Shown here piece by piece: positions 36,486 through 42,153 of a stretch of 64,000 nucleotides of DNA. Origin of the DNA: Thermoactinospora rubra. Lineage in GTDB: Bacteria; Actinomycetota; Actinomycetes; Streptosporangiales; Streptosporangiaceae. The stretch is from positions 62,001 through 126,000 of the forward strand of contig NZ_MSZZ01000022.1 in assembly GCF_002093975.1 (NCBI RefSeq). Direction: 5' to 3'. A program made the position numbers and the translations under genes. The notes under the pieces are model-generated. The model was not told where the DNA came from and made no database searches. It worked only from the letters and a program-made list of their open reading frames with translations. Position 1 is the stretch's first letter; every line of letters starts with the position of its first letter.

Positions 36486-37250
36486 CTACTTCCCTGCCGG
36501 ACTCACCAGCGTGCCGATCTTCTCACCGCGGACCGCGCGCAGGATGTTCCCCTCGCCCATGAGGTCGAACACCACGATGGGCAGGTCGTTCTCCCTGCAC
36601 AGGCTGATCGCGGTCTGGTCCATGACGGCGAGGTCGCGCACCAGGACCTCGGCGTAGTCGAGGTGGTCGAACCTGACCGCATCGGGGTTCTTGCGCGGGT
36701 CGGAGTCGTAGACCCCGTCCACCTGAGTGCCCTTGAGCAACGCCTCCGCACCTATCTCCAGCGCGCGCTGGGCCGCGCAGGTGTCGGTGGAGAAGAACGG
36801 CGAGCCCAGCCCGGCGCCGAAGATGACCACGCGGCCCTTCTCCAGGTGCCTGATGGCGCGCCTGGGCAGGAACGGCTCGGCGACCTGCTGCATGGTGATG
36901 GCCGTCTGGACCCGCGTGTCGATGCCACGCTTCTCCAGGAAGTCCTGCAACGCCAGGCAGTTGATCACCGTGCCGAGCATGCCCATGTAGTCGGCCCTGG
37001 CGCGGTCCAGGCCCTGCTTGGACAGGGCCGCGCCACGGAACATGTTGCCGCCGCCCACGACGACGGCGACCTGCACGCCCTCGCGCACCGCCTCGGCGAT
37101 GGAGTCGGCCAGCTGGCCGACCACCGCCGCGTCGATGCCGAGCGGCTCGCCGCCGGCGAAGGCCTCGCCGGACAGCTTCAGCATCACCCGCTTCCACCTC
37201 AGCGGGTACGAAGAAGCCGCCGACGCAGCTGGCTCCTGAATCTCCTGCAC
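36486..37250 (-). CDS. pyrH: Uridylate kinase
   Basis: 254-residue UMP kinase of the amino-acid-kinase fold. It phosphorylates UMP to UDP for nucleotide and cell-wall precursors. Motifs are [44 protein letters not shown] and [14 protein letters not shown]. The first 18 residues before the kinase fold are an extra Ala/Ser tail; an internal start is possible. Between tsf and frr, the universal order. Confidence 0.96.
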
Positions 37251-37282
37251 GACGGCGGCCTCCTCGGTGTTGCGGTGTCCGC

Positions 37283-37313
37283 GGACTAGCGCTATGGACT
37301 AGCGCTATGGACC
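37283..37313. repeat. Tandem 13-bp repeat between tsf and pyrH
   Basis: Two full copies and a partial third of GGACTAGCGCTAT. Each contains the palindrome TAGCGCTA. It lies in the 99-bp tsf-pyrH gap. Function unknown. Confidence 0.6.
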
Positions 37314-37349
37314 TCTGTGGACCCTCAAAGGACCCTCTATGGACAGAGA

Positions 37350-38183
37350 CTAAGCCTGACCGACCTTGAAGCGAACGAAGGCGAGCACCTCGACGCCGTT
37401 CTCCTCGGCGTACTTGCCGACGGACTTCTTGTTGTCCTTGACGAACGCCTGCTGGAGCAGGGTGAAGTCCTTGTACCAGCCGTTGACGCGGCCCTCGACG
37501 ATCTTCGGGATCGCGGCCTCGGGCTTGCCCTCCTCGCGGGTCATCTCCTCGAAGAGCGCGCGCTCCTTCTCGATGACCTCGGCGGGCACGGACTCGGGGG
37601 TGAGGTACTTGGGCGCCATCGCGGCGGCGTGCTGCGCGATGTCCTTGGCGACCTCGGGGTTGGGCTTGTCGAGCTGGACCAGCACGCCCACCTGCGGCGG
37701 CAGCTGCGGGTCGGTCTTGTGCATGTAGGCCGCGACGAAGCCGCCCTCCAGCACCGCGAAGCGGCGGACCTCGATCTTCTCGCCCAGCGCGGCGTTCGCC
37801 TCGTCCAGGTGCTCCTTGACCGTCTTGCCGTCGAAGGAGGACTCCAGCAGGCTCGCCACGTCGGCCGGCTTGGTGGCCAGCACGTGCTCGACGACGCGGG
37901 CGGCCAGCTCCTGGAAGCGCTCGCCCTTGGCGACGAAGTCGGTCTCGCAGTTGAGCTCCAGCAGCGCGGCCAGGGAGTCGCCGTCCTGCTTGAGCGCGAT
38001 CAGGCCGTTGGAGGCGGTGCGCGCCTCGCGCTTGCCGACGTCCTTGGCGCCCTTGAGGCGCAGGATCTCGACGGCGCGGTCGAAGTCGCCCTCGGCCTCC
38101 TCCAGCGCCTTCTTGCAGTCCATCATGCCGGCGGCGGTCAGCTCGCGCAGCCGCTTGACGTCGGCCATGTTCACGGAAGCCAT
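37350..38183 (-). CDS. tsf: Elongation factor Ts
   Basis: 277-residue guanine-nucleotide exchange factor for EF-Tu. The N-terminal UBA-like domain has VKRLRELTAAGMMDCKKALEEA, the core has the EF-Tu-contacting ELNCETDFVAKGERF, and the dimerisation region follows. GAGGAA precedes ATG 38183 at a normal distance; ATG 38168 is internal. It is separated from rpsB by an unusually long 363-bp gap. Confidence 0.97.
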   Translation of the reverse strand: MASVNMADVKRLRELTAAGMMDCKKALEEAEGDFDRAVEILRLKGAKDVGKREARTASNGLIALKQDGDSLAALLELNCETDFVAKGERFQELAARVVEHVLATKPADVASLLESSFDGKTVKEHLDEANAALGEKIEVRRFAVLEGGFVAAYMHKTDPQLPPQVGVLVQLDKPNPEVAKDIAQHAAAMAPKYLTPESVPAEVIEKERALFEEMTREEGKPEAAIPKIVEGRVNGWYKDFTLLQQAFVKDNKKSVGKYAEENGVEVLAFVRFKVGQA

Positions 38184-38546
38184 TGCTATTCCTCGTGGGA
38201 TGTCGTCGTGGTCCGGTTGGGCGCATCCCGCCCTTGGGTGCCGGTGCGGCTGGCGCCCGGCTTCGGTGGTACGGCTCGCGGCCCGGCCTCGCGCCTGCTC
38301 CGCCGGAGCCTCGGTCTCCCGGCGGCGCGCGACCCGGACCCTGCACGGGTTTGGGTCTTCGCCGGCCGTTCGGCGTCTCGCCGGGTGCTCAGGCCCCGCC
38401 GACCCGGCCTGGGCCTGCCGGGGCCCGGCTCTGCCGGGAGTCCGGCTCCCCGCCGGGCCGTCGAGCCTGGCCGGGCCATCGATGCCCCGCCAGGCTCCGG
38501 ACGCCCGGCCGCGAGGGCCTGGCGGCGCGAGCCGTACCGCAAGCTC
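38184..38546. other. GC-rich gap between rpsB and tsf
   Basis: 363 bp without a credible gene. It is made largely of short GC-rich inverted and direct motifs (CCGGGC, GCCGG, CGGCGG). Several weak hairpins are possible, but no T-tract terminator and no clear promoter could be identified. Confidence 0.6.
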
Positions 38547-39419
<873 letters not shown>

Positions 39420-39710: not shown

Positions 39711-40367
39711 TCAGGCCCCGCCCTCCTCCGGCCGGTCGGCCGCGGCCTCGCCGCGAGCCCGGTCGTGGTCCTCGGTCGGCAGCCCCGGCACGCGCCGTTC
39801 CGGGCTGGGGAAGAGCCGGATGTGGGCCTGCACGACCCGCGCCCCCTCGGGCACGCCCTCCTGGCGGCGGCTGCCCGCCGAGTACGGCTGGACGAGCTCG
39901 TCTATCCGCTCCCCCAGCTCCTTCAGCTCCTGGGCGGTCATCAGGAGCGTGGCGCTGTTCATCGCCGTCGCGTCGCGCCACTCCTCGGGCTCGAACTCCA
40001 GCCGGGCCAGGGCGCGTCTGGCGGCGTCCTCCTGGTCCTTCCAGAGGGCGTCGATGAGCAGCTGCTTGGCCGCCCGGGTCTCCAGCGCGTCGCCGGGCTC
40101 GTACTCGATCGAGAAGCCGTCGCGGACGTTCTTCCAGAGCCGTTCCCGGCCGTCGCCCCGCGGGGGCGCGTCCTCCACGAAGCCGTACTTGGCAAGCATC
40201 CGCAGGTGATAGCTGGCCGCGCTCGGCGTCACGCCGGCGACCTCGGCCAGCTCCGTCGCCGTCGCGCTGCCCACCACCGCCAGGCGGTTGATCATCGCCA
40301 GCCTGGCCGGGTGCGCCAAAGCCCGCATCGCCTTGGGGTCGCTCAGCGGACGCCGCCTCTCGCTCAT
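39711..40367 (-). CDS. ArsR-type winged-helix regulator
   Basis: 218-residue regulator. The N-terminal winged helix (about 8-80) has MRALAHPARLAMINRLAVVG, TELAEVAGVTPSAASYHLRML and KYGFVEDAPP, an HTH_20/ArsR-like DNA-binding unit. The rest (about 85-218) is a helical effector or dimer domain with MTAQELKELGERIDELV and a charged tail. It is divergent from an MFS transporter, and three operator-like repeats fill the 61-bp gap, so it probably represses that pump and itself. Confidence 0.85.
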   Translation of the reverse strand: MSERRRPLSDPKAMRALAHPARLAMINRLAVVGSATATELAEVAGVTPSAASYHLRMLAKYGFVEDAPPRGDGRERLWKNVRDGFSIEYEPGDALETRAAKQLLIDALWKDQEDAARRALARLEFEPEEWRDATAMNSATLLMTAQELKELGERIDELVQPYSAGSRRQEGVPEGARVVQAHIRLFPSPERRVPGLPTEDHDRARGEAAADRPEEGGA

Positions 40368-40385
40368 GGACCAAGGCTATCAATA

Positions 40386-40445
40386 TGAAGTATTGCCTTC
40401 AGAACTCTGAAAGGTTACCTTCACATTCATGAAGGAAACCTTTCA
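40386..40445. promoter_or_regulatory. Three TGAA-N8-TTCA operators spaced 22 bp apart
   Basis: Sites at 40386-40401 (TGAAGTATTGCCTTCA), 40408-40423 (TGAAAGGTTACCTTCA) and 40430-40445 (TGAAGGAAACCTTTCA). Their start-to-start distance is 22 bp both times, about two helical turns, so all face the same side. The third covers the MFS start codon. The ArsR-like protein is the obvious ligand. Confidence 0.7.
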
Positions 40446-42153
40446 CGACTCGGCGGCCCCGGCCGATCCCGTCCCCCTTCGCAGGCAGCGCGACTACCGC
40501 CTCCTGTGGACCGCGCGAACGGTGTCCCTGACGGGCTCGGAGGTCTCGAAGCTCGCCATACCTCTCACCGCGATCACCCTCCTGTCCGCCTCCCCCTCCG
40601 AGATGGGCCTCCTGACCGCCTCGGCCTTCCTCCCGGCCCTCCTGCTCGGCCTGCACTCCGGCGCCATCGCCGACCGCATGCGCAGGCTCCGCCCCTTGAT
40701 GATCGCCTGCGAGCTGGTCTCGGCCGCGGCCGCGCTGTCCGTCCCCGCCGCCTGGCTCCTCGGCGTGCTGTCCGTCCCCTGGCTCGTCGCGGTCGCGCTG
40801 ATCATCGGCCTGTGCGCCGTGCTCTTCCGGGCCGCCAACTTCCCGTACGTCGCCGCGCTCGTCTCCCCCGACCAGCGCACCGCCGCCAACGCCGGCTTCA
40901 ACGCCTCCTACTCGGTCGCCGGCGTCGCGGGCCCCGGACTGGCCGGGCTCCTCGTCCAGCTCATCACCGCGCCGCTCGCCGTCCTCGTGGAAGGGATCAG
41001 CTTCCTCGCCTCGGCGCTGCTCCTGCGTTCGATCAAGGCTCCCGACGACCGCGAACCCCGCGCCTCACGCGGCCTGATGCGGGACGTCGCAGAAGGCCTG
41101 CGCGTGACGGTCTCCCGCCCCACCATCCGCGCCTTGCTCGGCGCCGGAGTGACGATCAACTTCTTCGCGACCGTCTATCTGGCGGTCTTCATGCTGTACC
41201 TGCTCCACGACCTCGGCATCCCCACCGGGATGATCGGCCTCCTCACCGCTCTGTCGGGCCTCGGCGGCATCGGCGGCGCGTGGCTCACCACGCGCCTGGC
41301 CAAGCGGTACGGCGAGGACAAGGTGCTCCTGGGGTCGGTGATCTTCTTCCCTCTCGGCGTCGTCGTCGTGGGGACTCTCGACGGCCCCCTGTGGTGGAAG
41401 CTCGCGGCGCTGGCGGTCAGCAGCACGGTCACCGGTGCCGCGGTCGTCGCGTTCGCCACGTGCATGGGCACCGTCATCATGCGCGACGCGCCCGCCGAGG
41501 TGCTCGGCCACGTCAACGCCACGACCACGTTCGCGGTCCAGGGCGTGATGACCCTCGGCGGCCTCGTGGGCGGCCTGCTCGGCGAGCTCATCGGCCTGCG
41601 CCCGGTCGTCCTCGTCAGCGCCGCGGGCATCGCCTTGAGCGTCGCCTGGGTGTGGCTGTCTCCGCTCCGGCCGGGCCGCTCCAGAGCCTCTTCCGATGCG
41701 GCTTCCGGCGGGGCTCCCGGTGCGGCTTCTGACGGGGCTCCCGGCGCGGATGCGGTACGGCGTGCCGCCGGCACCGAGGGCGACACCGACCACCAGACCG
41801 GCCATGCCTCACCGGCTCCATCTGATGGTTCTTCCCGGGCGGTCTCCACCGACCAGTCCTCCGCCCGCTTCCCCACTGCCTCGGATCACACTTCCGCAGT
41901 CTCGACCAGCGCCTCCGCTGCTTCGGCCCGCGCTTCCGCGGCCTCGCCCGGCGCCCAGGGCGCTTCGGCCCACGCTCTCGGAACTTCGACCGGAACTTCA
42001 ATCCAGGCCCAGACAGGCTCCACCCGCGTCCAAGCGGCTTGGACGTCCGCCCGTGGTGCTACCTCGGCCCAGGCGAACGCCGTTCCCGGCGATCCGGCCC
42101 TGTCGTCGGCACTCCGCAACCTGTCTGCGGCCACCGATACCCGGTTCCTGTGA
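40429..42153 (+). CDS. MFS transporter with long Ser/Ala-rich C-terminal tail
   Basis: 574 residues. The first about 420 form a 12-segment MFS exporter similar to MdtH/enterobactin-exporter-like proteins (LRRQRDYRLLWTARTVSLTGSEVSKLAIP at the start, GLHSGAIADRMRRLRPLM as the motif-A loop). The last about 150 are a low-complexity, probably disordered tail rich in Ser, Ala, Thr and Gly with short degenerate repeats. The tail keeps GC codon bias, so the frame is likely real, though an earlier end cannot be excluded. No Shine-Dalgarno other than the operator-embedded bases. Divergent from the ArsR-like gene, which should repress it. Confidence 0.85.
   Translation: MKETFHDSAAPADPVPLRRQRDYRLLWTARTVSLTGSEVSKLAIPLTAITLLSASPSEMGLLTASAFLPALLLGLHSGAIADRMRRLRPLMIACELVSAAAALSVPAAWLLGVLSVPWLVAVALIIGLCAVLFRAANFPYVAALVSPDQRTAANAGFNASYSVAGVAGPGLAGLLVQLITAPLAVLVEGISFLASALLLRSIKAPDDREPRASRGLMRDVAEGLRVTVSRPTIRALLGAGVTINFFATVYLAVFMLYLLHDLGIPTGMIGLLTALSGLGGIGGAWLTTRLAKRYGEDKVLLGSVIFFPLGVVVVGTLDGPLWWKLAALAVSSTVTGAAVVAFATCMGTVIMRDAPAEVLGHVNATTTFAVQGVMTLGGLVGGLLGELIGLRPVVLVSAAGIALSVAWVWLSPLRPGRSRASSDAASGGAPGAASDGAPGADAVRRAAGTEGDTDHQTGHASPAPSDGSSRAVSTDQSSARFPTASDHTSAVSTSASAASARASAASPGAQGASAHALGTSTGTSIQAQTGSTRVQAAWTSARGATSAQANAVPGDPALSSALRNLSAATDTRFL

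Follow-up and report, generated by a model that had tools for sequence, protein, structure and literature searches.

A conserved array of TGAA-N8-TTCA palindromes overlaps the predicted promoter of an efflux pump gene next to an ArsR-like repressor gene in Thermoactinospora rubra

Results

Genes and palindromes at the locus

The window analysed here is a 64,000-nt stretch of the genome of Thermoactinospora rubra, a soil actinomycete. It contains a predicted repressor gene and a predicted efflux pump gene, on opposite strands, with three palindromes at the start of the pump gene (Table 1). The ArsR-type winged helix-turn-helix (HTH) of the repressor scores above the curated Pfam cut-offs (HTH_20, 7.8e-11, 42.2 bits against a cut-off of 27; HTH_5, 2e-08, 34.4 bits against 22). 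It is also present in the structure model (pLDDT 85; alignment of 28 sequences picked from the window and 69 other loci), where an N-terminal winged HTH is joined to a helical C-terminal part. Among solved structures, the closest fold is Kfla_6221 of Kribbella flavida (4g6q_B, TM 0.54 by query length), followed by PH1932 of Pyrococcus horikoshii (1uly, TM 0.42); sequence identity to these folds is about 20%. Relatives of the repressor were found in Nonomuraea, Streptosporangium, Planobispora, Planomonospora, Spongiactinospora and Sphaerisporangium.

A cysteine metal site in the HTH is a feature of ArsR/SmtB metalloregulators. No such site is present in the window repressor, which has no cysteine at all, and metal sensing through cysteine was ruled out on this ground. 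Since the protein also falls below the cut-off of the NCBIfam metalloregulator model NF033788 (47.4 bits, cut-off 55), it is unlikely to respond to a Cys-bound metal. Among relatives placed in the repressor tree described below, and over a stretch of at most 180 residues, cysteine is absent from 53 of 56 sequences from three-site loci, and two cysteines are found in 18 of 20 from two-site loci.

The pump is predicted to be of the drug-efflux type; it matches TIGR00900 at 2.3e-54, yet under the cut-off of that model. Past the matched MFS domain, its translation ends in a Ser/Ala/Thr-rich C-terminal tail (41690-42153). On the other side of the repressor gene, minus-strand frames (36486-39368) have translations resembling UMP kinase, EF-Ts and ribosomal protein S2; the switch would thus adjoin core housekeeping genes.

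Table 1. Features of the repressor-pump locus (window coordinates)
Feature	Position	Strand	Basis and remarks
ArsR-like repressor, 218 aa	39711..40367	-	Pfam HTH_20, HTH_5; predicted structure; 0 Cys
Candidate operator site 1	40386..40401		at most 2 mismatches in 56/56 loci; holds -35-like hexamer
Putative -35 hexamer TTGCCT of pump, inside site 1	40393..40398	+	sequence and conserved columns
Linker 1-2 (gaactc), AACT class	40402..40407		AACT in 43/54, AGTT in 7/54 three-site loci
Candidate operator site 2	40408..40423		sequence and locus comparison; holds -10-like hexamer
Putative -10 hexamer TACCTT of pump, inside site 2	40416..40421	+	sequence and conserved columns
Linker 2-3 (cattca), outside AACT/AGTT class	40424..40429		ends with the A of the pump start codon
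MFS efflux pump, 574 aa	40429..42153	+	Pfam MFS_1 2.8e-36, MFS_3 1.7e-32; probably leaderless
Candidate operator site 3	40430..40445		over putative +1 and pump codons 1-6

Three exact sites in near-two-turn register

Direct reading of the window gives TGAAGTATTGCCTTCA for site 1, TGAAAGGTTACCTTCA for site 2 and TGAAGGAAACCTTTCA for site 3. The initial annotation had placed TGAA-N8-TTCA repeats at 40386, 40408 and 40430, 22 bp apart from start to start, all of which is borne out by the sequence. It had further described them as lying exactly two helical turns apart; near-two-turn spacing stands but exactness does not, as 22 bp, with 10.5 bp to the turn, make 2.1 turns, with a phase offset of about +34 degrees between neighbouring sites at each 22-bp step. 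Likewise, the last repeat, said to cover the pump start codon, overlaps it without enclosing it: site 3 shares just the TG of the ATG (40429-40431).

Three exact TGAA-N8-TTCA sites in the window compare with 0.04 expected, and none of 100 shuffles reached this number. The whole genome (8,220,793 bases) holds 14 distinct exact sites (6 for the reversed pattern): the three of the array and 11 single sites elsewhere. Exact sites separated by 4-9 bp are found genome-wide solely in the two pairs of this array (reversed control, 0). When up to three mismatches were allowed with a 6-bp linker, two extra tandems appeared, each with three mismatches (reversed control, 1). No second tandem with two mismatches or fewer was found anywhere in the genome, so that a wide tandem regulon was rejected.

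An alternative parsing, in which the dimer unit is read inside out as TTCA-N6-TGAA, appears less likely, as the linkers range from 6 to 9 bp and the interior of the site stays at N8; the scan behind this comparison had N8 fixed, and is biased towards that answer.

Conservation of the array in relatives

The window was compared with 69 named loci, 55 of which carry an orthologous repressor (49-64% identity) and 14 a paralog (30-44%). Sites were called with at most two mismatches each and steps were scanned from 18 to 30 bp. An array was found in all 55 ortholog loci, 53 with three sites and two with two; none was detected in up to 1.3 kb of upstream sequence from the 14 paralog loci. Shared descent inflates these figures, as it does those for co-occurrence given below. 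Both two-site cases among the 56 loci (window included) are from Sphaerisporangium and lack the third site. Exact sites account for 155 of the 166, ten others having one mismatch and one having two. In the 44 of 56 loci with 22-bp steps throughout, the 60-bp block carries 1.54 bits per column, compared with 0.40 for the upstream and 0.34 for the downstream flank.

Conservation of the spacing in homologous loci, set by the initial annotation as a test of its reading, was found. All 56 loci have 22 bp between the starts of sites 1 and 2 (1-2 step), and 44 of the 54 three-site loci have 22 bp between those of sites 2 and 3 (2-3 step), the other ten having 23 (eight loci), 24 (one) or 25 bp (one); near-integral helical spacing is thus kept. 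Exact phasing is not absolute, as these ten loci indicate together with G006, outside the locus set, where the 1-2 step is 23 bp and the third site is one base short. Nor is it required, given the longer steps and the two-site relatives.

Ten more distant relatives (L152-L161) were also inspected; an exact TGAA-N8-TTCA precedes the repressor only in L156 and L159. In the latter (G047), which belongs to a different family within the class, two such sites precede an MFS-like gene. They are 27 bp apart and so depart from the 22-bp rule by roughly half a turn.

The array appears fused to the pump promoter

The hexamers TTGCCT and TACCTT, inside sites 1 and 2, are separated by a 17-bp spacer, and TACCTT ends 7 nt upstream of the ATG at 40429. 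This -35/-10/ATG layout matches that of actinobacterial promoters that give leaderless transcripts. In the 44 loci used for column statistics, the TTG of site 1 (columns 8-10) is kept as T in 44, T in 44 and G in 42, and the TA of site 2 (columns 31-32) as T in 44 and A in 43, whereas the equivalent inner bases of site 3 are free (T27/A16 and T26/A16). Hence, only sites 1 and 2 seem to bear a second, promoter-like constraint. A promoter scan of 40250-40550 with the E. coli consensus found none, and the promoter assignment therefore rests on the conserved columns. The pump transcript is probably leaderless, with its putative start at the ATG, and the array would be fused to the pump promoter, with -35-like hexamer, -10-like hexamer and start codon each in or over one site. 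By eye, no clear -35 was found for the repressor gene.

This arrangement bears on the spacing. The 1-2 step is 22 bp at least partly because the two hexamers lie 17 bp apart, and thus it is no proof, taken alone, of phased protein contact.

In at least five loci (among them L073, L093, L142, L147 and L151) the repressor gene is some 250-940 bp distant, and even so the array keeps its place at the pump start, which argues that it is first of all a pump control region. In Nonomuraea turkmeniaca (L073, also L031) about 900 bp lie between repressor and array, and the array is still at the pump.

The inverted repeats could in principle fold as RNA hairpins and act as an attenuator in place of DNA sites. 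This is extremely improbable. Sites 1 and 2 would lie upstream of the putative pump start and outside the repressor transcript, a terminator-like site was not found in 40250-40550, and the constraints on step and register fit DNA.

Site 3 is maintained as DNA

In 33 of the 54 three-site loci, site 3 reads as pump codons 1-6 (MKxxLH and similar), which would make it a by-product of a conserved pump N-terminus, with no operator function. We regard this as very improbable. Site 3 lies outside the pump frame (stop or other frame) in 14 loci, seven more being frame-ambiguous, and in all 14 it is exact and at a 22-bp step; the longer 2-3 steps (23-25 bp) belong to eight coding and two frame-ambiguous loci. 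Where the site is coding, codon 5 is CTT in 26 of 33 loci and TTT in the other seven, CTT being used for one of 75 Leu codons in the window pump. An exact off-frame site and a rare codon 5 where coding argue that the DNA is kept, and not the peptide. In 33 loci (among the window and L041-L094), 10 to 192 codons, often Pro/Ser/Thr-rich, separate the start codon in site 3 from a conserved motif resembling RRQRDYRLLW, the first transmembrane motif; this variable stretch may represent either a long leader or an N-terminal tail without ordered structure.

A repressor tree was built by a quick method from 76 orthologs (56 three-site, 20 two-site) with five paralogs as outgroup; of the 78 inner branches in this 81-row tree, 31 were unresolved. 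Left out were L006-L034 (G-handle loci, mostly of species among the named loci), nine of the 14 paralogs, near-copies (L118-L120, L122), copies of named loci (L128, L143, L149, L150), and L152-L158, L160 and L161. The tree groups 54 three-site rows in a single clade (SH-aLRT 99). The other two, L144 and L145, are placed among two-site rows, which implies at least two changes. With three-site rows on two separate branches, the tree points to more than one gain or loss of the third site, its deeper branching being weak.

Altogether, these data bear on whether adjacent dimers would bind cooperatively, a reading that we favour slightly. The same repressor could bind the same operator as independent dimers, with 22 bp being set by the 17-bp spacer and by the position of the start; this rival, which disputes the cooperative part only, is rather unlikely in our judgement. 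It accounts for the coincidence of sites 1 and 2 with the -35- and -10-like hexamers, for a promoter-tied 1-2 step that is invariant in 56 loci while the 2-3 step varies between 22 and 25 bp, and for the existence of two-site relatives (20 of the 76 ortholog rows). It fits less well with a 2-3 step that is still 22 bp in 14 of 14 loci with no pump frame in site 3, with a third site in the same register on two separate branches, and with steps confined to 22-25 bp although 18-30 were scanned.

The linkers carry a recurrent motif

Linker 1-2 reads n-AACT-n in 43 of the 54 three-site loci and n-AGTT-n, its reverse complement, in seven. In linker 2-3, AGTT is found in 18 loci and AACT in four; AACT follows site 3 in 15. 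The window linkers divide accordingly: gaactc (1-2) fits the AACT class and cattca (2-3) fits neither. Set beside the 12-2-12 inverted repeat of ArsR/SmtB operators, the relatives allow an extended 26-bp palindrome, AGTT-n-TGAAG-N6-CTTCA-n-AACT, with TGAA and TTCA 8 bp apart in place of 6. We infer that AACT/AGTT could provide an extra, A+T-rich flank contact beyond the TGAAG half-site, used by one of the neighbouring dimers. Linker motifs, promoter fusion and the two-site form were all absent from the initial annotation.

The array and the repressor ortholog occur together

In a scan of 345 genomes of the order, a strict pair (two sites with a 6-7 bp linker) was found in 98 genomes; the reversed-pattern control matches 13 of 345, which means that chance alone can produce a single strict pair with some frequency. 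Of the loci from this tandem scan, L112-L129 were read and L130-L141 left out. The repressor ortholog is present in 108 genomes at E<=1e-40 (119 at the searched limit of 1e-28); the stricter limit was chosen after viewing the matches, at the gap between 8e-43 and 5e-36. Both are present in 97 genomes, the pair alone in one, the ortholog alone in 11 and neither in 236 (Fisher p 7e-72, kinship ignored). Each of the 11 ortholog-only genomes has a one-mismatch pair at a 22-bp step (ten fetched loci and G017, that is L034), followed by the pump motif in ten; the motif was not found after the pair in L143. G146 (L129), the only genome with a pair and no ortholog, has no recognised repressor or pump beside the pair, which we take as chance or unrelated.

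Binding by the adjacent ArsR-like protein is a prediction, and in at least five loci its gene lies at the larger distances from the array given above. Some other regulator (another ArsR, a MarR or a TetR, for example) might thus bind the palindromes, with the neighbouring protein a bystander. We consider this improbable: in 333 of 345 genomes, ortholog and strict pair are either both present or both absent, and in each of the 48 genomes (of the 97 with both) among the matches listed, the pair lies within 461 bp of the ortholog (median, 46 bp). Moreover, the T. rubra genome has no further close tandem with two mismatches or fewer, and the paralogs own palindromes of a different type upstream of their own genes.

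The latter are CAAAG-N4-CTTTG, found in 12 of the 14 paralog loci (L096, L098-L107 and L109) at a constant position a few bases upstream of the paralog's own start. A second, looser copy lies 27-29 bp further on in nine of the 12. The recognition helix of these paralogs reads SQASCSFHLR, compared with T/SPSAxSYHLR in the orthologs. Palindrome and recognition helix thus differ together, which, as a single contrast, is in keeping with repressors of this sort reading palindromes of this sort. The two groups share the protein family, 16-bp palindromes and a 6-N4-6 frame; the paralog group differs in the outer bases, in the 27-29 bp step and in having its site before the repressor's own start. No pump start was detected by motif in the upstream sequence covered for this group.

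Discussion

In all likelihood, the three-site array is a genuine genetic switch of a known design. With good confidence, we assign it as operator to the ArsR-type repressor encoded next to it and see it as part of the predicted pump promoter, which it would serve to block. As regards the earlier assignment to this neighbour, the array is conserved, palindromic, co-occurring with the repressor and situated on the predicted pump promoter, which supports the assignment; the earlier interpretation as a whole, with its cooperative part, is partly supported. That the operator was called unusually ordered is fair, promoter geometry being part of the cause.

In the scheme that we infer from sequence for promoter elements, transcription start, binding, cooperativity and ligand, one predicted repressor dimer would sit on each TGAA-N8-TTCA palindrome, dimer 1 over the -35, dimer 2 over the -10 and dimer 3 over the transcription start and start codon, so that RNA polymerase would be shut out. 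A small ligand, probably a substrate of the pump and no Cys-bound metal, would free the repressor and turn the pump on. Adjacent dimers would lie on nearly the same face of the DNA and may aid each other's binding, which would make repression tight and the response steep. Conceivably, site 1 might also serve to repress the repressor's own gene. A fuller version would combine one dimer per element (-35, -10 and +1/start codon), at least two gains of the third site and a shared AACT/AGTT contact; we put it forward tentatively, at somewhat below an even chance. By that account, a two-site ancestor would have acquired its third site on top of a leaderless start codon, each time keeping the register, and the linker flank contact common to neighbours would yield a three-dimer, roughly symmetric cooperative assembly centred on the -10.

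Several elements of the predicted switch have counterparts in described systems. ArsR/SmtB-family operators are 12-2-12 inverted repeats, as in the smt, zia and nmtA promoters. The AzuR study (PMC8790569) reports positive cooperativity (Hill 2.48 +/- 1.14), an operator lying over the predicted -35 and, for zia, an operator situated between the -10 and the start. The likeness to our array lies in the winged-HTH ArsR fold and in palindromic TGAA...TTCA half-sites located at or close to the promoter, in some cases as two copies. TGAA and TTCA are 8 bp apart here, compared with 6 in an Anabaena repeat in Table 2 of that paper (PMC8790569). The array further differs in its three copies, near-fixed 22-bp step, one site per promoter element and Cys-free repressor. 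Thus, one- or two-copy, promoter-overlapping, cooperative ArsR/SmtB operators are known (PMC8790569), and the variant here is three copies, one per promoter element, with 8 bp between TGAA and TTCA. The MerR-like BldC, reported to form cooperative multimers on DNA (PMC5859096), is similar in being an actinomycete regulator that is cooperative on repeated sites, and differs in recognizing direct repeats and in being a protein without a classical dimerization domain. In the open-access literature, judged by title or the start of the abstract, no paper on this repressor-pump pair was found.

In conclusion, these loci form a natural series, with two or three sites, steps of 22 to 25 bp and one 27-bp case, within one repressor family. 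The series lets the link between operator phasing, promoter geometry and repression strength be tested, and the comparison matches palindromes to recognition helices in a group of actinobacterial ArsR proteins, encoded beside efflux pumps, that has so far been little described.
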